Shown one piece after another: positions 12,204-58,432 of a stretch of DNA of 64,000 nt. This DNA comes from Belliella baltica DSM 15883. GTDB taxonomy: Bacteria > Bacteroidota > Bacteroidia > Cytophagales > Cyclobacteriaceae. The notes beneath the pieces were generated by a model. It had not been told where the DNA came from, did not search any database, and worked only from the letters and a program-made list of their open reading frames with translations. The position numbers and the translations under genes are program-made. The stretch's first letter is position 1. The number at the start of each line of letters is the position of its first letter. Where the stretch lies: positions 1,860,001-1,924,000 of the forward strand of contig NC_018010.1 of the NCBI RefSeq assembly GCF_000265405.1, given 5' to 3'.

Positions 12204-12566
12204 GTATTTTTTCTAATCCTGGTTTTTCAAGATTAAGACTTTACAATTCAAAGCTATTTTTATTAATCCTAATTAAAGGAATTAATTCTTAGATGATATT
12301 TTTTTTAAATAAATTAAAAATATTATTTAGGTGAACAAAATGGTTTTTAGTAACAATAAACCGTTTGAATTAGTAAATAAATGTATTATTTGTATGTTTT
12401 AACAACATAAAAAAATGATATTATTATAAAAAAAAATTAGGGAAAACTTGTTTTTTAATTTCGGGGGGGGTACTTTGAGCATCGAAAAGTCTTCAATACC
12501 GGTTAGGAATACTTTTTAGGAGTACTGCGCTGCCTAAAAGTGTGTGGAAAAATTTACTTTATTATT
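12204..12566. promoter_or_regulatory. AT-rich leader with G8 tract and hairpin ahead of the peptide gene
   Basis: This 363-bp gap is very AT-rich up to about 12460. It then has a run of eight G (12463-12470) and an inverted repeat CTTTTTAGG (12512-12520) with CCTAAAAG (12533-12540) 26 bp before the peptide start at 12567. The G run is the only long G homopolymer noticed upstream of a gene here, and could allow slippage; the hairpin may lie in the 5' leader. No canonical promoter box was found. Confidence 0.45.
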
Positions 12567-12758
12567 ATGAAAAATTCAATTCTAAAATCAGGTCTAATCA
12601 TGTTTGCCATGGTTGGTATGTTCTTCATTAATGTGCAGGATGCAAAGGCTGTTCCTTGTACTTTAGAAAGTATAAATGAAGGAGGGGCTACTGCAATTTA
12701 CGATTGTGGTGAACATGGTAAAGTTACTGTCGCTAGAGGTACTACTGTGCGAGCCTAA
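12567..12758 (+). CDS. Small secreted Cys-containing peptide precursor
   Basis: A 63-residue ORF: basic start (MKNSILKSG), hydrophobic core (LIMFAMVGMFFINV), and a possible signal peptidase site after DAKA, leaving a mature peptide of about 35 residues beginning VPC with two Cys (31 and 47) and no other domain. It resembles in layout the NVEALA-type short precursors that accompany 6-bladed propeller lipoproteins in Bacteroidota, but the NVEALA motif itself is absent. An in-frame upstream start at 12540 would give a poor signal, so ATG 12567 is preferred. A strong terminator separates it from the propeller gene. The same layout recurs at 52002. Function unknown. Confidence 0.7.
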   Translation: MKNSILKSGLIMFAMVGMFFINVQDAKAVPCTLESINEGGATAIYDCGEHGKVTVARGTTVRA

Positions 12759-12819: not shown

Positions 12820-13902
12820 ATGAAATCAAACTATTTATTCAATTTAGTAATATATATTATATTATTTTCATGTAATAGTAAGGAAACTAATTTTTCTTTA
12901 GAATCAGGTGATTTAATAATTATCGACTCTGTTCAAATCGATGATAGTAGATTTAGTTTTGGCGAAATCTATAATCCTAGAGTATTCAATGATAGTATTT
13001 TAGGGTTTGGAGACGGTTCTTTTCGAAGTATTAATTTATTTCATTCTAAATCAGGAGCCTTTCTTTCAAATTTTGAAACTGATAGCATAGAATCATTCCC
13101 TCTACCTGAAAAGGATATGACATTTTTCTATATCAAAGGAGAGTTAATTTATATTTTGAATGATTTAATTAGATCAATTTTTGTATTTGATTTGGATAAA
13201 AATTTTAAAGAAAAAATAGAATTAAATTTTAAAAACTTATCTCAAAAGCCAACTTTTATGGGGCTTTTTGAAATTCAGGAAAATTCGATTTTTCTTAGCT
13301 CAGTTTATGATGGTGCTTTGAGTGACAGGTTTAAAAATTCAAAAATAGTTACAGAGTTTGGCTTAGATGGTCAATTTTTAAATGATTTTGGCTCTTTTCC
13401 TAAGCCGTATACAACTGGAAATTTGGTTTTGAGTTCAAACGAAAACAAAATCATCAAAGACGGAAAAATCTATATCCTTAATGTGGCTGGAGTTCCGATT
13501 TTGAAAGAGTATTTGCTTAATGGTGATCTGAATGGTGTATATAAATTGGAATCTGAACATCATGATCCTGAAATTGGATATTACACCAATGATCCATTTT
13601 CCGCTCCGCTAACTGATCAGTTCAATGGATTGGCTTCCGATCAAAATTCTTCTGAAAAAATTTTTTATGCGACCTACAGTTCATTTGATACCCGTGATAG
13701 GGAATATGGTTTGGGTACTTATAAATGGATGTTGATGAAAATTGATCTTGAGAATATGACAATCAAAGAAAAGGAATTGGCAGGATCATGGCACTTAAAT
13801 GAATTAAGAAAATTGATTCCTCAAGTGAAAGGAGATACAGTTAGTTTTTTAATCAGAGAGAAAGATGAGAATTTGTATTTGAAGCGTTTGATTTTTGATT
13901 AA
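12820..13902 (+). CDS. 6-bladed beta-propeller lipoprotein (BF3164/DUF4221-like)
   Basis: 360 residues. Lipoprotein signal (IYIILFSCNS, Cys about residue 18), so probably membrane-anchored. The rest is beta-rich with repeated aromatic and Asp/Asn-containing strands such as FSFGEIYNPRVFNDSILGFGDGSF and YILNDLIRSIFVFDLDKNF, as in Bacteroidota propeller lipoproteins of unknown role. It also has the late segment YYTNDPFSAPLTDQFNGLASDQ. It follows the secreted-peptide gene and its terminator. The coding sequence is more AT-rich than that of flanking housekeeping genes. Binding of the neighbouring peptide is an inference only. Confidence 0.72.
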   Translation: MKSNYLFNLVIYIILFSCNSKETNFSLESGDLIIIDSVQIDDSRFSFGEIYNPRVFNDSILGFGDGSFRSINLFHSKSGAFLSNFETDSIESFPLPEKDMTFFYIKGELIYILNDLIRSIFVFDLDKNFKEKIELNFKNLSQKPTFMGLFEIQENSIFLSSVYDGALSDRFKNSKIVTEFGLDGQFLNDFGSFPKPYTTGNLVLSSNENKIIKDGKIYILNVAGVPILKEYLLNGDLNGVYKLESEHHDPEIGYYTNDPFSAPLTDQFNGLASDQNSSEKIFYATYSSFDTRDREYGLGTYKWMLMKIDLENMTIKEKELAGSWHLNELRKLIPQVKGDTVSFLIREKDENLYLKRLIFD

Positions 13903-50217: not shown

Positions 50218-50461
50218 TGGATTTAGTTATAGGTTAATTAGGATAAATAGTTAATTAAGTGGGAAAGTAGGCAGACAAGTTCTTTTAGTAATTCAATCTT
50301 CCAATTATACAATCCCACCCCAAGGTCTGTGTCTTCACAGACCTTCTACCCTAAGTCTGCATAGAATGCTGATTTTGTCAAATGGCTTGTGGAGACACAA
50401 GCCATGTTTAACCTTAAAACCTTCCAACCTTGTAACCTTCAAATCTTCCAATCCAATTAAA
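50218..50461. repeat. Spacer with G/T-rich left, C/A-rich right and two perfect hairpins
   Basis: Left part (50218-50275) has TTAATTAGG/TAGTTAATTAAG words; right part (50406-50461) has CCTTCCAACC/AATCTTCCAATCC words. Between are two perfect 10-bp stems: AAGGTCTGTG 50322-50331 with CACAGACCTT 50336-50345 (loop TCTT), and ATGGCTTGTG 50382-50391 with CACAAGCCAT 50396-50405 (loop GAGA). No gene. Confidence 0.75.
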
Positions 50462-51219
50462 ATGCCCATCTACACCGACCAACTCAAAAGAAAAGTAACA
50501 ATCGCCGAAAGCCCGAAGAGAATTATTTCATTGGTTCCTTCACAGACTGAGCTTTTGGTAGATCTTGGTTTAGGGGATAGGATAGTAGGGGTGACCAAGT
50601 TTTGTGTTCACCCTGAAGGATTCAAAGAGAAAAAGCAAATCATTGGGGGAACAAAGAATTTTCATTTCGATAAAATTGATCAGCTCGAGCCTGATTTGAT
50701 CATTGGCAACAAGGAAGAGAACTATCAGGAGGGAATAGAGAAGCTTGCGGAAAAGTATCCTGTATGGATGAGTGATATCTTCGATCTAAGCGATGCAATG
50801 GAGATCTTGGGATTGGAGAAATCACAGGAAGGTCTGAAGCAGCACAGCAATTGGTTGATATGATTCAAAAGGATATGGATTATGTTCCCAAGAAAAAGGA
50901 GACATCAGTATACCTGATTTGGAAAGATCCGATCATGGTAGCAGGTAAGAATACTTTTATAGACGATATGCTTGATCGGGCAGGTTACGAGAATTTGGTA
51001 AGGGAAAGTCGATATCCAGAGCTTTCGTTGAAAGAACTCACCGAAATGAATCCGGATTTTTTGCTTCTAAGTTCAGAACCATACCCATTCAAACAAAAAC
51101 ATCTGGATGAATTTTCGGCAATACTGCCAGATTCTACCATCCAGTTGGTTGACGGAGAGATTTTTAGCTGGTATGGGAGTAGGTTGAAATGTTTCAAAAA
51201 TTATATATCTAAAATATAA
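50462..51219 (+). pseudogene. BtuF-like substrate-binding (helical backbone metal receptor) protein, frameshifted
   Basis: The first frame from ATG 50462 reads KRIISLVPSQTELLVDLGLGDRIVGVTKFC, IIGGTKNFHFDKIDQLEPDLIIGNKEEN and VWMSDIFDLSDAMEIL. Near 50803-50815 the family sequence moves to another frame: GEITGRSEAAQQLVDMIQKDM, then VYLIWKDPIMVAGKNTFIDDMLDRAGYEN to TAA 51219. A single-base indel joins the halves into about 250 residues. No signal peptide, as in many short Bacteroidota members. It probably bound a corrinoid or metal complex; transporter genes are not adjacent. Could be a true pseudogene or a sequencing error. Confidence 0.88.
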
Positions 51220-51229
51220 GGTAACCTGA

Positions 51230-51931
51230 TTATTGTTCTATCATTTTCAAGAGGTCTTTAGCAGTGGGTCTTTCGCTCGGTTTTTTGCTTAGACAGAGTT
51301 CTATGAAATGATTGTAAGGCTCCATGACCGAAACCAAAGGTGTACCGATGATGCATTTGGATTTGATGTTCTCTTTGATTTTTGAAACAGGAATGTTTCT
51401 TCTGTCTCCAAAAGGGTATTTTTTTGTAAACAAAATATAAAGTAGTACTCCAAAAGACCAAATATCCATTTTGGAAGTGACCATTCCTGATTCATAGACT
51501 TCGGGAGCTATGATCTCCGGAGTATAAAACCCCCCTTTGATTTTTAATACGGTATTTTCTCTTTTTAGAGTCAGCAAGTCACCTAGTTTAAATGTGATTT
51601 TTTTACCAACCTTATGCATCAGGATATTGGAGAGCTTTAAGTCAGAGTGCACCAGTTTTTTGCTATGTAAGTAAGAGAGCCCTGTCAATGTATCCATAAT
51701 TAGGACATTGACCATTTCCAATGATACAGGATACTTGTCAATGAACTCATTTAGCGATGTAAGATTGCAGAAAGGAGTAATTGAAAAAGCTTCAATTTCA
51801 CTAGTGTTGAGTTGGAGTTTTTCTATGGGATTGATATTGGGGTGGTCTAAGTCTAAGATAATGTCAATGATAGATTTCTCGATTGCTTTTAATTGATCTT
51901 CAGAAATCAATTTTTTGATATTTTTTTTCAT
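51230..51931 (-). CDS. Protein-kinase-like protein lacking the N-lobe
   Basis: 233 residues. The C-lobe of a Ser/Thr kinase is clear: a helix-C-like start (IILDLDHPNINPIEKL), catalytic loop HSDLKLSNIL (His95, Asp97, Asn102), GDLL in place of DFG (Asp118), IAPEVYE (APE, 142-144), DIWSFGVLLY (156-165) and a closing SERPTAKDLLKMI. The glycine loop and the beta-3 lysine are absent, and no extension upstream supplies them. It might be a pseudokinase, an unusual active kinase or a truncated gene. It is divergent from the secreted-peptide gene at 52002, 70 bp away, and convergent with the BtuF-like remnant. Confidence 0.82.
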   Translation of the reverse strand: MKKNIKKLISEDQLKAIEKSIIDIILDLDHPNINPIEKLQLNTSEIEAFSITPFCNLTSLNEFIDKYPVSLEMVNVLIMDTLTGLSYLHSKKLVHSDLKLSNILMHKVGKKITFKLGDLLTLKRENTVLKIKGGFYTPEIIAPEVYESGMVTSKMDIWSFGVLLYILFTKKYPFGDRRNIPVSKIKENIKSKCIIGTPLVSVMEPYNHFIELCLSKKPSERPTAKDLLKMIEQ

Positions 51932-52001
51932 TTTTTTAATGAGTTTACTTGCTTTTTAAAATTGTTTTTTTTTTGAAAAACAACTTTTAAATTATAAACA
52001 T

Positions 52002-52229
52002 ATGAAAAACTCAAAATTCAGATTTCCAAATGCAATCATGGCAGTAGCGGGAGCTACAGCGATGGTATTTTCGACGGGTTTCATTTCTTCAGAACCAATA
52101 GAGGTTACAGAAGAGACTTTTGTGGAGTTGGAGTTAGAAGCCACTTTAGGTAACCAGTACAGAGATAATACATGTGGTGAGCCTATCGGTACTTGTATGC
52201 CAACCTATTGCTGTGTTACGACAGATTAA
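52002..52229 (+). CDS. Small secreted Cys-rich peptide precursor
   Basis: 75 residues. N-terminal signal-like region (MKNSKFRFPNAIMAVAGATAMVFSTGFISS), an acidic middle (EPIEVTEETFVELELEATLG) and a short tail with four Cys (58, 65, 70, 71: NTCGEPIGTCMPTYCC). The acidic segment ending EATLG recalls the leader end of NVEALA-type precursors, but only loosely. Its start (MKNS), size and placement before a terminator and a beta-propeller lipoprotein match the gene at 12567. It may be a secreted, disulfide-bonded or modified peptide; nothing known proves this. Confidence 0.72.
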   Translation: MKNSKFRFPNAIMAVAGATAMVFSTGFISSEPIEVTEETFVELELEATLGNQYRDNTCGEPIGTCMPTYCCVTTD

Positions 52230-52240
52230 TCAGTTTATTG

Positions 52241-52294
52241 GCCACGATGTTTTTCTAACTAAAAAATGTTTTTATTCATCGTGGCTATCTTTTT
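52241..52294 (+). terminator. Intrinsic terminator between peptide and propeller genes
   Basis: GCCACGATG (52241-52249) pairs perfectly with CATCGTGGC (52277-52285), the loop has further A/T pairing, and nine or more T follow. It lies 12 bp past the peptide stop, as in the first module (12771). Confidence 0.9.
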
Positions 52295-52329
52295 TTTTAA
52301 GTTAAATTTTTACAATCTGTTTTGATTTT

Positions 52330-53493
52330 ATGAAAAGAATTTTGGTGTTATTTTGTCTGATCTCCTTTAGCTGTGGTGGAAAAATAGGGAATGGTAACTC
52401 AAGAGTATTTAAAGAAATTCATGAATATGTCTTGAACTTGGATAGATATACTTCTCCTGTTGAGGAATATATACAATATGTTCCTAATTGGAAAGGTAAG
52501 GAAGTATTTGCAATTCATGTACGAGGTATGTTTGAAATTAAGCTGTACGACTTTACAACCAACGAATTGCTGGAAACATTAAAGTATTCTCACGAAGGTC
52601 CAAAAGCTTATCCAAACACTTATGATTTTCATATTCATGACGAAAATAATATTTTCATGAATAGAAGGTATCATTACAGAGCCCACCTAGTCAATCAGCA
52701 CTTTGATTTGATCAAGACATTTGAATTTTTGGATCCAGGGACTAAAGTAGATCCTGTTTCAGGGATTCCTTTGTCAGGTAAAACCTTTTTACCTATGTTT
52801 AATCATAATAAAATATTTAAAAAATTTCCTGATAAATTTATCTTAACAGCTTCACCAGATATAAGTTCTTATGACCCAAAAAAGTTTTATGCGGACTGTT
52901 TGCTGATAAATGTAGAACTAGAGACAGGAGAAATTAGCAGAGTGAAAGGTTATCCTGAAAAGATGCATGGTAAGGCTTGGGGCGTGTTGCACTCTTATAT
53001 TTATACGGATTACTCAGAAAGAAAAGAGCAGTACTTTTTAAGTTATGCTGCTGACGAAGAATTGTATGTTGAAAATGATAAGTTTGAGAGAATAGCCTCC
53101 TTTTCAGCCAAACCAGAAAAGTTCAAGGAGATAAAGGCAATACCTGTAAATGCTGTTTTCAATGATCCTGTGTATATGACACATTACAATGAGCAATTTG
53201 TTTTTGGATCTGTTTTGTACGATGAGCATCGGGATTTGATTTATAGAATAGCCTTAGAGCCGAATCCAAATTATGGAGATACCTATACAAAAGATCCATT
53301 GCATGAGCCAAGAAATATGATTGTTATGGCATTTGATAGCAATTATGAAAAAATAGCTGAAATGCGTTTGGAGCAATCAGAAGATGGTGTTTATCTTGAC
53401 AGATGTTTTGTTAACGAGAAGGGGTTGAACATCACCTATGTGGATTTGAATAATGAGGATAAGTTATACTTCAAGACTTTTTTGGTAGAATGA
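52330..53493 (+). CDS. Beta-propeller lipoprotein (DUF4221-like)
   Basis: 387 residues with a lipoprotein signal (LVLFCLISFSCGG, Cys about residue 15). Propeller-like strands include YVPNWKGKEVFAIHVRGMFEIKLYDFTTNELL, NTYDFHIHDENNIFMNRRYHYRAHLVNQ, YFLSYAADEELYVENDKFERIASFSAKPEKF and FVFGSVLYDEHRDLIYRIALEPNP, which resemble DUF4221 proteins. It follows the Cys-rich peptide gene and terminator and overlaps the next lipoprotein gene by 4 bp. Its first ~55 codons are duplicated at 53934. Role unknown; a peptide partner is only inferred. Confidence 0.78.
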   Translation: MKRILVLFCLISFSCGGKIGNGNSRVFKEIHEYVLNLDRYTSPVEEYIQYVPNWKGKEVFAIHVRGMFEIKLYDFTTNELLETLKYSHEGPKAYPNTYDFHIHDENNIFMNRRYHYRAHLVNQHFDLIKTFEFLDPGTKVDPVSGIPLSGKTFLPMFNHNKIFKKFPDKFILTASPDISSYDPKKFYADCLLINVELETGEISRVKGYPEKMHGKAWGVLHSYIYTDYSERKEQYFLSYAADEELYVENDKFERIASFSAKPEKFKEIKAIPVNAVFNDPVYMTHYNEQFVFGSVLYDEHRDLIYRIALEPNPNYGDTYTKDPLHEPRNMIVMAFDSNYEKIAEMRLEQSEDGVYLDRCFVNEKGLNITYVDLNNEDKLYFKTFLVE

Positions 53494-53885
53494 GGTGTTG
53501 TGTTTTGTCTACTTTAGTTTTTATGTTTCTTCTGGGATGCAGTTCTCGGAAAAGCAAAAAGGATCCGATCTTAGATTATATAGAATCCATTACATCTTCT
53601 GAATTGCAGGAAGGATTAAGTTATGTCTTGGTGTCGGATTATTCCTGTTCGGCATGCAAGGAGGAGGTCTATCTTGACATTGAAAGAGGTAGTTTAGAAA
53701 CACATTACATAGTGATGGATCCGAGGAATAAAGCTATCCTGAAAGAGCGTTTTAAGGTCGCTATTTCCCATGATATTTTTCACATTGACTCTTTAGGGCT
53801 GAACAAAAAAATAGGGATTATTCTTGATAAACCAATTAGTGTGATTTTTGAGAAAGATGAATGGTTAAAGAAACAAGATTTATAG
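53490..53885 (+). CDS. Small lipoprotein with CxxC motif
   Basis: 131 residues. Lipoprotein signal (LVFMFLLGCSS). The middle reads LSYVLVSDYSCSACKEEVYLDIERG, with a strand followed by CSAC at a helix start, as in thioredoxin-like folds, then HYIVMDPRNKAILKERF and a second strand IGIILDKPISVIF. It overlaps the propeller gene stop by 4 bp (ATGA), so the two are translationally coupled. A redox or disulfide role toward the Cys-rich peptide is attractive but unproven. Confidence 0.68.
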   Translation: MRCCVLSTLVFMFLLGCSSRKSKKDPILDYIESITSSELQEGLSYVLVSDYSCSACKEEVYLDIERGSLETHYIVMDPRNKAILKERFKVAISHDIFHIDSLGLNKKIGIILDKPISVIFEKDEWLKKQDL

Positions 53886-53933
53886 TAAAAAATCTTTAAA
53901 TTGTATTTTTGAAAAAAAACTTAGTTTTGTAGT

Positions 53934-54110
53934 ATGAGGAAAGTTATTTTTTTTATTTGCCTGCTTTCTTTTAGCTGTGGTGGAAAAGTAGATGGAGAAG
54001 GAATAAAAGTTTTTAAAGAGGTTCACCAATACATGTTGGATTTAGATAGGTATACTTCTCCTGTTGAGGAATATATACAATATGTTCCTAATTGGAATTT
54101 TGCTTTTTGA
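53934..54110 (+). pseudogene. Truncated duplicate of the 52330 propeller lipoprotein
   Basis: A 58-codon ORF with lipoprotein signal (FFICLLSFSCGGKVDG) parallel to the start of the 52330 protein. The DNA is identical over 47 bp (54051-54097 and 52447-52493). Immediately after that block the sequence diverges and hits TGA at 54108. A partner gene was lost by deletion or recombination. Confidence 0.85.
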
Positions 54111-54179
54111 TATTGAATTAAAATAAACTATCTTAATCGGTCAGAGGTTTTTCTTTCAACTTTTGAAAGCTTATTGAAC

Positions 54180-54794
54180 ATGAGATACTTTACTTATTTA
54201 CTTATTCTCCTTTTGTTTGCTTGTGGAAAACCTGTTCAACAGATAGTGCAACAGATCCATGTTAATTCCTGGCTTCCACCTCTTGATAGAGGGGAGATTA
54301 TTTTGGTCAATTTACCAGCAGGTTTTTCCCAAAAGGATTATAGGACATTTCTGGAAACCCTTCCTCAGGAATTGAAAAGCTATGGCTTTAGAGAGGTTTG
54401 GGATACTGATTATCACGAAATCGAATTGAAATCAGTAGGGATAAGAGATTTTACAACTGAAAGAAACAGAGAAAAGTTGTATGCAGAATTAGGGGTGCGG
54501 TATTTACTTGATTTGGAAATTGTAAATAAGAAATATGCTCGATTAAGTAAGCTAGGGGCAACAATGCTATACAATGAATCCAATCAAAACAGCTCTGTGG
54601 TTGGAAGCTCATTATGGACTTACCCTGATTATTGGATTCATACTAACTACATACTTTATGATCTTGCTGAAAAAGATGTTTTGGTCGAACTAGATGTTAG
54701 GACTACTCATTTGGACAATAATACAGTTTACCCCAAATCAATTAAGAAAGATATACAAACTCTCTTTATGTATATTTATTCAGAAGGATTGTAA
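54180..54794 (+). CDS. Lipoprotein of unknown function
   Basis: 204 residues from ATG 54180 with a lipoprotein signal (YLLILLLFACGKP, Cys about residue 15). Later segments include RGEIILVNLPAGFSQKDYRTFLETLPQELKSYGF, REKLYAELGVRYLLDLEIV and DYWIHTNYILYDLAEKDVLVELDVRTTHLD, giving an alternating strand/helix fold like outer-membrane-associated assembly or TolB-N-type domains, though no family was recognised. An in-frame TTG lies six bases upstream. It stands alone after the remnant propeller gene. Confidence 0.65.
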   Translation: MRYFTYLLILLLFACGKPVQQIVQQIHVNSWLPPLDRGEIILVNLPAGFSQKDYRTFLETLPQELKSYGFREVWDTDYHEIELKSVGIRDFTTERNREKLYAELGVRYLLDLEIVNKKYARLSKLGATMLYNESNQNSSVVGSSLWTYPDYWIHTNYILYDLAEKDVLVELDVRTTHLDNNTVYPKSIKKDIQTLFMYIYSEGL

Positions 54795-55036
54795 AGATTT
54801 GACGTGACCGATTTCGAACAACACACCCAAAAGAGATGTCCATATTCGGTCAAAAATTAAAAAAGTAAGAATTGTTCGATTTAAATATTGGTAATGTTAT
54901 CACCAGGCATTAACTTTCAAGTCCTTTTAAAACAGATTTTAGGCTAATTAAAATTTATTCTTTCCACTCAAACAATTTATCGAGTATGGTTATTGTATCT
55001 AAAGCAATCACAAATTAATTATTAATTATATATTAT
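54795..55036. other. Intergenic region upstream of the M16 operon
   Basis: AT-rich and about 240 bp. Contains loosely inverted words GACCGATTTCGAACAA (54805) and TTCGGTC (54847), and TTGTTCGATTT (54872). It should hold the promoter of the M16 genes, but no clear box was seen. Confidence 0.4.
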
Positions 55037-56365
55037 ATGAGAAAATCCGCTTTGTTATCACTTTTCGGTGTGTGCTTCGTGTTTTCGGTTTTTGGTCAAA
55101 ACAAAATCGAATTCAAAGAATTCACATTGGATAATGGGTTGCATGTTATCCTTCATCAGGATAATACAACACCTATTGTAGCTACATCAGTATTATATCA
55201 TGTAGGTTCCAAAAATGAAAACCCAGAAAGAACTGGTTTCGCACATTTCTTTGAGCATTTGATGTTTGAAGGTTCAGAAAATATCCCAAGGGGTAAGTTT
55301 TTCGAAATTGTAGAGTCTGCTGGAGGTACTCTAAACGCAGGTACTAGCCAAGATTATACAATCTATTACGAAATCCTTCCATCTAATCAATTAGAGCTCT
55401 CACTTTATCTCGAGTCTGAAAGAATGCTTCAAGCTAAAGTAGATCAGGTTGGTGTCGATACCCAAAGAGAGGTTATCAAGCAAGAGATGAAAGAGGTAAT
55501 GGAAGAGAGGCCATATGGCTCTTTTCAAAAAGAAATTCCAGTTAGATTATATCCAAACCATCCGTACAAATCCCCAATCATTGGTTCTGCTGAACATTTG
55601 GAAGCGTCCAAACTGGAGGAATTCATGGAGTTTTATGCGACTTATTACAAGCCAAACAATGCCACACTTTCTATAGCTGGTGACATTGATTATGCAGAAA
55701 CTGAGAGATTAGTAAGAGCATATTTCGAAGAAATCCCAAAAGGAACAATCGAACCTTACAGACCTAATATTGAGATTCAGAAGTTAAGCAACGAAATAGA
55801 AGATGTAGTGTATGACAACATCCAGTTGCCAGCGATTTTCCAAGGCTACCTAATGCCTAAAAAAGATCATCCTGATACATATGCTTTGGACTTACTTAGT
55901 ACTTACTTGTTGTCAGGAAAGAGTTCTCTGATGTACAAAGAATTGGTAGACAAAAGCCAAAAAGCGATTCAAGCAGTTGCTTTCCCAAATGATTTGGAAG
56001 ACGGGGGTATGTTTCTTGTACTTGCTATCGCAAATATGGGAGTAGATGTGGATGATTTGAATGTCGCTATCGACGAAGTGTTGGATCAAGTCAAAACCAA
56101 CGGTATCGATAAAAATGACTTGCAAAAATTGATAAATATCAAAGAAAATCAAATTATCAATGGGTTTGGATCTGTAGCAAACATTTCACAGTCATTAGCT
56201 CAAGGTCACGTGTTTTATGGCAATGCCGATTATGTCAATACCCAACTGGATTTATTCAGAAAAGTAACAGCGGAGGATGTCAAAAGAGTTGCTCAAAAGT
56301 ATCTTGATAAAGACAGCAGAGTAGTGTTGAAATATCTTCCTAAACCAACAGATGCAACTGAATAA
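55037..56365 (+). CDS. M16-family zinc protease, active type
   Basis: 442 residues with signal peptide (ALLSLFGVCFVFSVFGQ). Zinc-binding HxxEH is HFFEH (His70, Glu73, His74), and the distal Glu lies about 75 residues on in EVIKQEMKEVMEERPYG. The rest shows PNHPYKSPIIGSAEHLEA and YYKPNNATLSIAGDID. Periplasmic peptidase that probably pairs with the next gene as in two-subunit M16 proteases. Its stop is 24 bp before that gene. Confidence 0.94.
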   Translation: MRKSALLSLFGVCFVFSVFGQNKIEFKEFTLDNGLHVILHQDNTTPIVATSVLYHVGSKNENPERTGFAHFFEHLMFEGSENIPRGKFFEIVESAGGTLNAGTSQDYTIYYEILPSNQLELSLYLESERMLQAKVDQVGVDTQREVIKQEMKEVMEERPYGSFQKEIPVRLYPNHPYKSPIIGSAEHLEASKLEEFMEFYATYYKPNNATLSIAGDIDYAETERLVRAYFEEIPKGTIEPYRPNIEIQKLSNEIEDVVYDNIQLPAIFQGYLMPKKDHPDTYALDLLSTYLLSGKSSLMYKELVDKSQKAIQAVAFPNDLEDGGMFLVLAIANMGVDVDDLNVAIDEVLDQVKTNGIDKNDLQKLINIKENQIINGFGSVANISQSLAQGHVFYGNADYVNTQLDLFRKVTAEDVKRVAQKYLDKDSRVVLKYLPKPTDATE

Positions 56366-56389
56366 GTTCAAAACTTAATTGTGATAAAC

Positions 56390-58432
56390 ATGAAAAAATT
56401 ATTTATATATTTTATTTTCTCCATTTTTTCTACTGTTGCAATAGCTCAGATAGATAGATCGAAACTTCCCGAACCAGGTCCGGCACCAGAAATTCGATTT
56501 GGAGACGCAGAATCATTTACTTTGAAAAATGGGCTTAAGGTTTTTGTTATTCAAAACAACAAACTTCCAAGAGTGACTTATTCATTGATCTTGGACAGAG
56601 ATCCAATTCTTGAAGGTGATAAAGCCGGAATGTTGGGTTTTGTAGGAGAGATGATGACTGCAGGTACTAAAAACAGATCAAAAGATAAGTTCAATGAGGA
56701 AATCGATTTCCTCGGAGCTAGGATTTCTGCTTCTTCCACTTCTTTGACAGCCTCAACCTTGACCAAACATCAGGAGAAAGTTTTGGAATTGATGGCAGAT
56801 GTGCTTTACAATCCATTATTCCCTGAGGATGAGCTTTCAAAATTGAAAACTCAATCTAAATCAGGATTGGCTTTAGCTAAAAATGATCCTAGTTCGATCT
56901 CTAGTATTTTGTCAGGAAAATTGGTTTACGGATCTGATCATCCTTATGGTGAGACTGAGACAGAAGCTACCATTGAAAATATTACTGTAGAAGATATTAA
57001 AAGCTACTACAATACTTTCTTCAAACCAAACATTGCCTATTTGGCAATTGTGGGAGATGTAAGTTTATCAGAAGCTAAAAAAATGGTAGAGAAGCACTTT
57101 TCCTCATGGAAAAAAGCAGATGTGCCATCTTTCAAATATAAAACGCCTGAAGTACCATCTGAAAATGTAGTCGCTTTGGTAGATAGGTCAGCTTCACAGC
57201 AATCTGTCATCAATATCACTTATCCTGTACAAAACCATTTGCCAAGTGAAGATTTTTTGGCAAGTAGGGTTATAGGACAAGTACTCGGTGGTGGAGGTTC
57301 TGGAAGATTATTTATGAACCTCCGTGAAGACAAAGGTTTCACTTATGGATCGTATGCAGGAATCGGCTCAGATAGACTTGTTGCAAGTTTTTCTGCGGAT
57401 GCAAGTGTGAGGGGTTCAGCTACTGATTCAGCGGTATATGAGATCATTTACGAAATCAGAAACATGAGAGATAATGGTATCACTCAAGCTGAATTGGATG
57501 CTGCAAAATCAAACATAAGTGGATCTTTTGGAAGGTCTTTAGAGAGTCCAAGTACTGTAGCAAATTTTGCAATCAATACTGAACGTTATGGATTGCCAAA
57601 AGATTTTTATGCGACATACCTACAGCGCTTGAATGCCCTTACGGTAGAGGATGTCAATGCCGCTGCCAAAAAATTCTTGCAGCCAGATAATATGTACATT
57701 ACCGTAGTAGGAAATGGAGCACAAGTGAAGGAAGGCTTGATGGCATTTGGTGAAGTGAAAATGTTTACCAATATGGGAGAGCCTGAGCGATTGGTTGCCA
57801 TGGATGCTGATGTAACGGCAAGCGGCGTGATTGATAGCTACATTGAAGCTATTGGAGGAAGTGAAAAGGTAAAATCAATTAAGACTTCGATTATTGAATC
57901 ATCTGCGGAAGTTCAGGGGATGAAATTGGATTTTGATTATTACTATGATGAGCAAAAACAAGCATTTTCCAACAAAGTAAGTATGGGTGGCAATGTAATG
58001 TCAAATACACTTTTGAAAGATGGTAAAGGTATAGTTCAAGCAAATGGAGCAAACCAAACACTCACTGACGAACAGTTCGAAGCAGCAAAGATGACAATGT
58101 TTATATTCCCTGAGTTACATTTTGAATCTTTGGGTTATACTTTGGAAGTGGATGGAATCAAGGATGTGGAAGGAGAAAATGCCTACAAAGTTGTTGTTTC
58201 CAATCCTATGGGCTCTACGACCATCAATTATTATAGTGTAGAGTCTGGCCTCAAAATCAAATCTGAGAGTGAAGAGACTGGAGAAGTGTTTTACACTGAT
58301 TACAAATCTATAGACGGAGTGATGTATCCGATGAAAATGATCATCAAATCCCCTATGATTCCTTTCCCATTGGATGCGATTGTCAATGAAGTGTCATTCA
58401 ATACTGCCATTGAAGAGTCTGTATTTAATTGA
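56390..58432 (+). CDS. M16-family protein with extra C-terminal domain
   Basis: 680 residues with signal peptide (FIYFIFSIFSTVAIAQ). Residues about 30-455 form the M16 fold of the second-subunit kind: the HxxEH site is replaced (MLGFVGEMMTAGTKNRS), and GGGGSGRLFMNLREDKGFTYGSYAG is the substrate loop. The final ~200 residues (VIDSYIEAIGGSEKVKSIKTSII onward) match the next gene and look like a LolA/LolB-type beta fold. So it is a fusion of a non-catalytic M16 subunit with an extra domain. The start ATG 56390 is chosen over the GTG nine bases upstream. Confidence 0.92.
   Translation: MKKLFIYFIFSIFSTVAIAQIDRSKLPEPGPAPEIRFGDAESFTLKNGLKVFVIQNNKLPRVTYSLILDRDPILEGDKAGMLGFVGEMMTAGTKNRSKDKFNEEIDFLGARISASSTSLTASTLTKHQEKVLELMADVLYNPLFPEDELSKLKTQSKSGLALAKNDPSSISSILSGKLVYGSDHPYGETETEATIENITVEDIKSYYNTFFKPNIAYLAIVGDVSLSEAKKMVEKHFSSWKKADVPSFKYKTPEVPSENVVALVDRSASQQSVINITYPVQNHLPSEDFLASRVIGQVLGGGGSGRLFMNLREDKGFTYGSYAGIGSDRLVASFSADASVRGSATDSAVYEIIYEIRNMRDNGITQAELDAAKSNISGSFGRSLESPSTVANFAINTERYGLPKDFYATYLQRLNALTVEDVNAAAKKFLQPDNMYITVVGNGAQVKEGLMAFGEVKMFTNMGEPERLVAMDADVTASGVIDSYIEAIGGSEKVKSIKTSIIESSAEVQGMKLDFDYYYDEQKQAFSNKVSMGGNVMSNTLLKDGKGIVQANGANQTLTDEQFEAAKMTMFIFPELHFESLGYTLEVDGIKDVEGENAYKVVVSNPMGSTTINYYSVESGLKIKSESEETGEVFYTDYKSIDGVMYPMKMIIKSPMIPFPLDAIVNEVSFNTAIEESVFN

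Follow-up and report, generated by a model that had tools for sequence, protein, structure and literature searches.

What kind of gene system sets a short cysteine-bearing secreted peptide, a hairpin, a large propeller lipoprotein and a small CxxC lipoprotein in a row, and why does this order recur? The question is raised by positions 52002-53885 of the window, by which we mean the whole 64-kb stretch of NC_018010.1 from Belliella baltica DSM 15883 (Cyclobacteriaceae) that was analysed; this genome is called the own genome below. An earlier note had described here a peptide, a 9-bp hairpin, a propeller and an overlapping CSAC lipoprotein, and direct reading of the sequence finds each of them in place. 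That note does not cover the promoter-position repeats, how large the family is, or the exchange of the propeller N-terminus with the remnant at 53934-54110. The features are as follows.

12463-12470 (+): G8 tract before the peptide of the first module
12567-12758 (+): secreted peptide of the first module, 63 aa, two Cys after the signal
12820-13902 (+): lipoprotein of the first module, 360 aa, no Pfam match
51949-51974 (+): promoter-position element, TTGC at 51949-51952, then a T10 tract at 51965-51974
52002-52229 (+): secreted peptide precursor, 75 aa; signal/leader in codons 1-48, then a four-Cys core
52151-53050 (+): block divergent from B. calami (74-87% identity), covering peptide core, hairpin and propeller N-half
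52241-52298 (+): terminator-like hairpin with a 9-bp stem, and T-run, between peptide and propeller
52330-53493 (+): propeller lipoprotein, 387 aa, DUF4221 (PF13970), by Pfam and 3s9j match
53490-53885 (+): CxxC lipoprotein, 131 aa, predicted thioredoxin-like fold; lipobox Cys 17, C53-S-A-C56
53934-54110 (+): second-propeller remnant, 58 codons; part of its N-terminal stretch swapped with the intact gene, own genome against B. calami

We consider it probable, though well short of assured, that these are randomly switched contingency modules of Cyclobacteriaceae, in which the CxxC lipoprotein would put the disulfides into a secreted peptide and the peptide's own propeller would bind it.

The module and its family

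The 52002 peptide starts with MKNS and carries cysteines at residues 58, 65, 70 and 71 (direct reading). The hairpin stem, with arms GCCACGATG (52241-52249) and CATCGTGGC (52277-52285), starts 12 bp past the peptide stop and is followed by T9 at 52290-52298, and the 53490 gene overlaps the propeller gene (52330-53493) by 4 bp. The 52330 protein belongs to DUF4221, with 62.6 bits against a Pfam gathering cut-off of 23.4, and its propeller fold is predicted from the sequence match to a solved relative, 3s9j (profile E 1.8e-48). Immediately 5' of the module, and divergent from it, lies a protein-kinase-like gene (PF00069, 233 aa, 51230-51931). At 50366-51219 a periplasmic binding protein (PF01497) is apparently split between two overlapping ORFs in different frames, which may be a broken gene or a sequence error.

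The small ORF at 52002 looks like constrained coding sequence when compared with one close relative, B. calami: codons 1-48 have dS 0.064 and dN 0.009, codons 49-75 dS 0.756 and dN 0.211. The earlier note had named a lack of synonymous-site bias in relatives as the sign that the ORF is not coding, and such bias is present, since dN lies below dS. Three more peptides, 50-56% identical to this one, occur on short metagenome contigs.

The module recurs, as had been claimed, and does so at no fewer than 23 peptide loci of the own genome. Nineteen precede a gene with a propeller-family match (16 loci plus L034, L169 and L170), and one of the 16 (L036) has its peptide before an interrupted propeller. 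The other four are the first module (12567), L166, L181 and L183, whose second genes have not been matched to a propeller family, the 12820 gene alone among them having been scanned with Pfam. That first module does hold a peptide followed by a lipoprotein gene, as the earlier note had it, but the name propeller is unproven for the 12820 product because neither Pfam nor a local propeller profile matches it. The shared MKNS start of the two peptides, also pointed out there, is real but uninformative, since most of the family's peptides begin MKK, MKN or MRK. In all, the own genome has 27 DUF4221, 11 DUF5128 and 4 TolB_like matches.

Scoring across the genus, as the earlier note had proposed, was carried out with the local profile on eight Belliella genomes, one per species, and gave at least 141 distinct full-length DUF4221-type propellers; among the matches listed, 30 have a peptide and 111 do not. 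A narrower-alignment search for related loci gave five loci. From the Belliella DUF4221-type loci, the own-genome DUF5128 loci and the window's first module we curated 36 peptide genes, judged on signal, length and position and required to have two or more Cys past residue 24; repeats were not used as a criterion, although they were already known at curation. Antisense and other-frame ORFs were dropped by hand, along with two possibly real ORFs of 46 aa (L094) and 59 aa (L086).

DUF4221 genes also occur in arrays. One, at L062:1905-11099, has eight tandem lipoprotein genes with neither peptide nor strict repeats, and shorter arrays are found in other Belliella genomes (L055, L073, L098). At L049:5014-8187 in B. 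filtrata the propellers are tandem as well; the first copy is followed by an apparent CxxC lipoprotein start, broken just before the next promoter, which suggests unequal exchange.

Cysteine counts bear on what happens to the peptides. Among 57 distinct peptides, 2, 3, 4, 6 and 8 Cys after residue 24 were counted in 7, 3, 37, 8 and 2 peptides, respectively; the number is even in 54 of the 57, and in two of the odd-count peptides (L069 and L128) an extra Cys sits at residue 24 itself. These even counts fit peptides that are secreted and disulfide-bonded. Terminator-like hairpins follow 42 of the 57 peptide genes, where shuffling would give 5.2, a soft control as it uses mononucleotide base shuffles. 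At our locus the stem (52241-52285) is identical in B. calami and the loop changed.

Known families offer little purchase on the peptides. The 52002 peptide has no Pfam or NCBIfam family, and the 57 peptides gave nothing significant against curated families. No RiPP or bacteriocin family gave a significant match, the best in NCBIfam being chryseobasin (E 0.017, one member) and lactococcin 972 (E 0.11, one member). NVEALA (PF14055) was rejected: it is absent from the 16 families that the 57 peptides hit with E no higher than 1, and it has no match in the own genome and one, below cut-off, in 60 genomes. DUF6520 (PF20130) is weakly matched by 2 of the 57 peptides, without the 52002 peptide, and falls below significance.

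Behind 17 of the 30 peptide-bearing propellers and 2 of the 111 peptide-less ones comes a CxxC lipoprotein of 100-200 aa (eight Belliella genomes, among the matches listed; Fisher 5e-12, without kinship correction). One of the two exceptions (L061) sits in an operon that carries peptides. By the criteria used, 13 of the 30 peptide-bearing propellers are without the partner, and in B. calami the thioredoxin-like gene is absent from the corresponding place. The 53490 protein has a predicted thioredoxin-like fold in which CxxC opens the helix after the domain's first strand. On the loop opposite CxxC, where thioredoxins have a cis-Pro, a proline stands in the expected column in 8 of 14 rows (by eye), the 53490 protein among them. 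This lipoprotein is a candidate thioredoxin-like oxidoreductase. The disulfide chemistry that the earlier note had proposed is a good inference because Cys counts are even in nearly all peptides, and the keeping of the CxxC partner with Cys peptides and its predicted fold point the same way.

Repeats in promoter position

Peptide genes of this family often have simple sequence repeats (SSRs) just upstream. Strict SSRs were defined, within 160 bp upstream, as G/C runs of at least 6, 2-mers repeated five times, 3-mers four times, and 4- to 8-mers three times or more. Among the matches listed they precede 22 of the 36 peptide genes, none of the 111 propellers without a peptide and 6 of 189 other genes of the same stretches (Fisher 5e-17 and 5e-16 against the two control groups, without kinship correction). 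Counted by peptide cluster the figure is 16 of 27, and adding the L094 and L086 ORFs, neither of which has a strict repeat, makes it 22 of 38. When poly-A/T runs of at least 9 are included, the totals become 27/36, 3/111 and 10/189. The units are (TTCT)n, (ATA)n, (TAT)n, (TA)n, G runs, a 7-mer and an 8-mer. A tract far above background, as a contingency locus should have, is thus a property of the locus family and not, strictly, of the 52002 locus, whose T10 tract stands alone and which is one of the 14 of 36 peptide genes without a strict SSR.

Repeat number varies among near-identical copies. In the own genome L019 and L020, about 15 kb apart, are identical in peptide, intergene and propeller and have 4 and 7 ATA units, respectively; L007 and its relative L102 (in G003) have propellers 99.7-100% identical and 8 versus 3 units. 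At the 52002 locus itself the T tract is T10 in the own genome and T17 in B. calami, and in the B. filtrata relative it is T9 at equal distance.

The position of the repeats points to the promoter. TTG lies at most 16 nt 5' of the strict SSR in 21 of the 22 peptide genes, whereas shuffled flanks gave a mean of 5.0 and never reached 21 in 1000 rounds; the 52002 locus stands outside these 22. Such a TTG agrees with the TTTG that serves the Bacteroidota sigma factor as -33 element; the excerpt of PMC6847099 available to us gives the consensus as TTTG/TANNTTTG and describes the -33 motif as far less evident in F. johnsoniae. Where the repeat ends on its 3' side, 8 of 22 cases show a -7-like box (shuffle 5.6, p 0.14). 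This is not significant, so the model in which the repeats act as promoter spacers is unproven. Accordingly, a TTTG-N-TAnnTTTG spacing for all repeats was not adopted, the TTG part being strongly supported and the -7 box not.

The association can also be approached from the repeat. TTGC(TTCT)n occurs 34 times in 16 of 390 family genomes (5 of 84 genera), and the same pattern read backwards is absent from all 390; among 247 phylum genomes, which include 7 from the same family, the (TTCT) pattern is confined to the own genome. A peptide ORF lies downstream at 26 of 30 fetched TTGC(TTCT)n loci, and at all 26 an ORF of at least 130 aa follows 1-160 bp after the peptide, some of these ORFs running off the locus. 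Two of the loci without an intact peptide (L149, L155) are, by hand reading, interrupted peptide genes. The repeat precedes lipoproteins other than Cys peptides at L143 and L157. Not all of these loci are independent: L140, L141 and L148 are the places of L128, L007 and L057, so 3 of the 26 were already among the 36, and L131 and L137 are near-duplicates. Second-gene proteins were scanned for 25 pattern loci (L137 left out as a near-duplicate of L131) and for the 12820 gene; these 26 proteins gave 8 TolB_like, 7 DUF5128, 4 DUF4221, 3 DUF4934 and 2 Porph_ging matches, with multiple matches per protein possible.

Other units behave with differing specificity. A 14-nt (ATA) pattern has five occurrences across the own genome; four of them lie upstream of peptides and the fifth falls within an ORF. 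G tracts of at least 7 were examined at 22 distinct places there, 12 of them inside ORFs of at least 100 aa, 4 before real peptides and 6 elsewhere without a peptide, a tally that leaves out 7 further tracts (10 listed matches) without a locus. A candidate G-tract peptide (L200) was dropped for want of a proper signal.

Repeats before peptide genes could also serve surface variation: propeller and peptide would be displayed, random switching would evade phages, predators or grazers, and the peptide would be a structural or masking part of the propeller. Contingency loci usually work in this way, switching many alternative envelope proteins at random. Promoter repeats have such an example in hmwA of Haemophilus influenzae, as far as the excerpt of PMC8262952 describes it. 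The strongest clue against variation of the propeller surface alone is the absence of strict SSRs from all 111 peptide-less propellers, by which switching goes with the peptide and not with the propeller, and we hold this account to be possible but on the unlikely side.

Joint divergence of peptide and propeller

At the 52002 locus the peptide core and the propeller N-half change together. Compared with B. calami in 150-bp windows, the 300 bp ahead of the 52151-53050 block are 97-98% identical and the 450 bp behind it, up to the propeller end, 99%. The block starts inside the 52002 peptide gene near the leader/core border and ends inside the propeller, where dS is about 0.9-1.0 in codons 1-200 and 0.20 in the rest. 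Bounded in this way as a single block, peptide core and propeller N-half appear to have been exchanged, or kept apart, as one unit. Their joint change suggests mutual recognition, which would be the simplest reason for it at this one locus.

The block is not the sole mosaic patch, because windows nearby dip too. Beyond the propeller most windows lie at 89-100%, but identity falls to 78% at the remnant and to 84% at 54551-54700. On the other side it is 89-98% at 50.2-52.15 kb and 78-87% at 49.15-50.2 kb. By BLAST the identity to B. calami is 94.1% over 53925-58214, and 45-50 kb averages 80-84%. High identity at 50.2-58.2 kb against low identity at 45-50 kb suggests recent transfer between species.

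The remnant adds a second kind of exchange. By BLAST, 53964-54097 of the own remnant matches B. calami's intact propeller at 93.3%, and 52348-52493 of the own intact gene matches the B. calami remnant at 91.8%, whereas like-with-like DNA identity in this N-terminal region is 74-78%; part of the region has therefore been exchanged. Over the whole 58 residues the picture is less clear, with protein identities of 41, 43, 43 and 45, because the gene starts and the remnant end were not exchanged. The remnant is possibly a silent donor cassette.

Across the family the covariation is weaker. Our propeller and that of L049 are 43% identical and their peptides are unrelated. Where a propeller's similarity to its nearest other is 0.3-0.5, the nearest one's peptide core ranks among the top three in similarity in 7 of 10 cases, and over all modules in 10 of 29. 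Peptide-core and propeller similarity give a Mantel r of 0.16 (p 0.048) over 29 modules, and r 0.07 (p 0.24) without close pairs; the 29 are what remains of the 36 after removing second peptides of tandem pairs, one duplicate and four modules without DUF4221 coordinates. Over all modules, then, peptide and propeller sequences appear to covary weakly. The variable cargo of the earlier note is borne out as to the fast turnover of the peptides, but the shared divergence of core and propeller N-half at 52002 is more like that of a cognate pair. Free shuffling of cargo is not favoured for close propellers, most of which keep a related core, but over all modules the share is smaller and the covariation weak.

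Joint divergence would also suit bacteriocin-like antagonism, with the peptide as a narrow-spectrum toxin, the propeller as its cognate immunity protein and peptide-less propellers as orphan immunity genes. The many paralogues with fast-changing cores agree with this, as do the 111 of 141 propellers without a peptide (among the matches listed), some of them in the array of eight at L062. A large propeller, however, is an unusual immunity protein, and no bacteriocin family is matched better than E 0.017; we think antagonism unlikely.

The repeats might, finally, be neutral or mere AT-rich spacers, in modules that do ordinary envelope maintenance and include a thioredoxin. The window is indeed AT-rich (34-42% GC in 4-kb windows) and the position of the -7 box is not significant, but the association of repeat and peptide holds in both directions, several unrelated units, G tracts included, stand at similar places, and repeat numbers differ between identical copies, all of which makes neutrality improbable. 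Peptide signalling, in which the peptide would act as a pheromone that the propeller lipoprotein receives or binds in the periplasm, can draw on a small secreted peptide beside a possible binder, on block-wise divergence like that of pheromone-receptor pairs and on the adjoining kinase-like gene, but about 20 parallel phase-variable channels are unlikely for a single signalling system and an incidental view noticed no regulator of constant type beside the modules, which makes it very improbable.

Proposed mechanism and known systems

For the randomly switched, peptide-binding modules that we favour, the anatomy and the associations point to the following course of events. Promoter strength would depend on repeat length, turning the peptide gene on or off at random. 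The peptide would be exported by Sec, the thioredoxin-like lipoprotein would pair its cysteines into disulfides, and the neighbouring gene's propeller would hold the mature peptide at the cell envelope. Read-through would be lowered by the hairpin 3' of the peptide gene, so that the peptide would be made in excess over its binding protein. The system may serve surface diversity, self-recognition or antagonism.

A broader picture can be offered tentatively, as a possibility that we would not yet bet on. Cyclobacteriaceae may hold a large undescribed arsenal of switched disulfide-bonded peptides, each served by a propeller of its own, either a receptor or an immunity protein, and often by a private oxidase too; specificity would be renewed by cassette exchange of core and propeller N-half and by N-terminus swaps with silent remnants. 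Repeat-driven random switching is best known from host-adapted pathogens, and promoter inversion is the switching mode usually cited in Bacteroidota. If our reading is true, repeat-driven switching runs a secreted-peptide repertoire in free-living Bacteroidota, a function is suggested for the orphan propeller families DUF4221, TolB_like and DUF5128, and about 20 natural peptide-propeller pairs in one genome become available for studies of recognition. Searches on NVEALA, DUF4221 and Belliella phase variation found no paper in the full text of the open-licence literature. Searches on Bacteroidetes repeats, on propeller plus Cys-rich peptide and on Algoriphagus repeats gave, among the open-licence matches listed, no title or abstract opening on such modules.

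Several known families resemble parts of the modules. The NVEALA peptides (PF14055) of Bacteroides are small, signal-bearing and Cys-containing, and some peptides here share a similar acidic leader by eye, but PF14055 has no match among the 57 peptides, as in the own genome. DUF6520 (PF20130) comprises small signal-bearing proteins, and its best E among the 57 peptides is 0.034. The second gene of most modules belongs to DUF4221, TolB_like or DUF5128 (PF13970, PF15869, PF17170), but these families cover the propeller alone, and most DUF4221 copies (111 of 141, among the matches listed) have no peptide. The CxxC partner recalls thiol-disulfide oxidoreductases of the TlpA/ResA/DsbE type, but is about 130 aa long, has no Pfam family and lies inside the peptide-propeller operon.

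There is also a likeness to promoter-repeat loci of the hmwA type. In H. influenzae, the excerpt of PMC8262952 places heptamer repeats between two hmwA promoters, and, as far as that excerpt goes, both systems have short tandem repeats in the promoter region, multi-copy genes for secreted or envelope proteins, and differences in copy number. Unlike hmwA as described there, the Belliella loci combine 2-, 3-, 4-, 7- and 8-mers with G and T tracts in one genus, set them in a Bacteroidota promoter context and place them before Cys-rich peptides.
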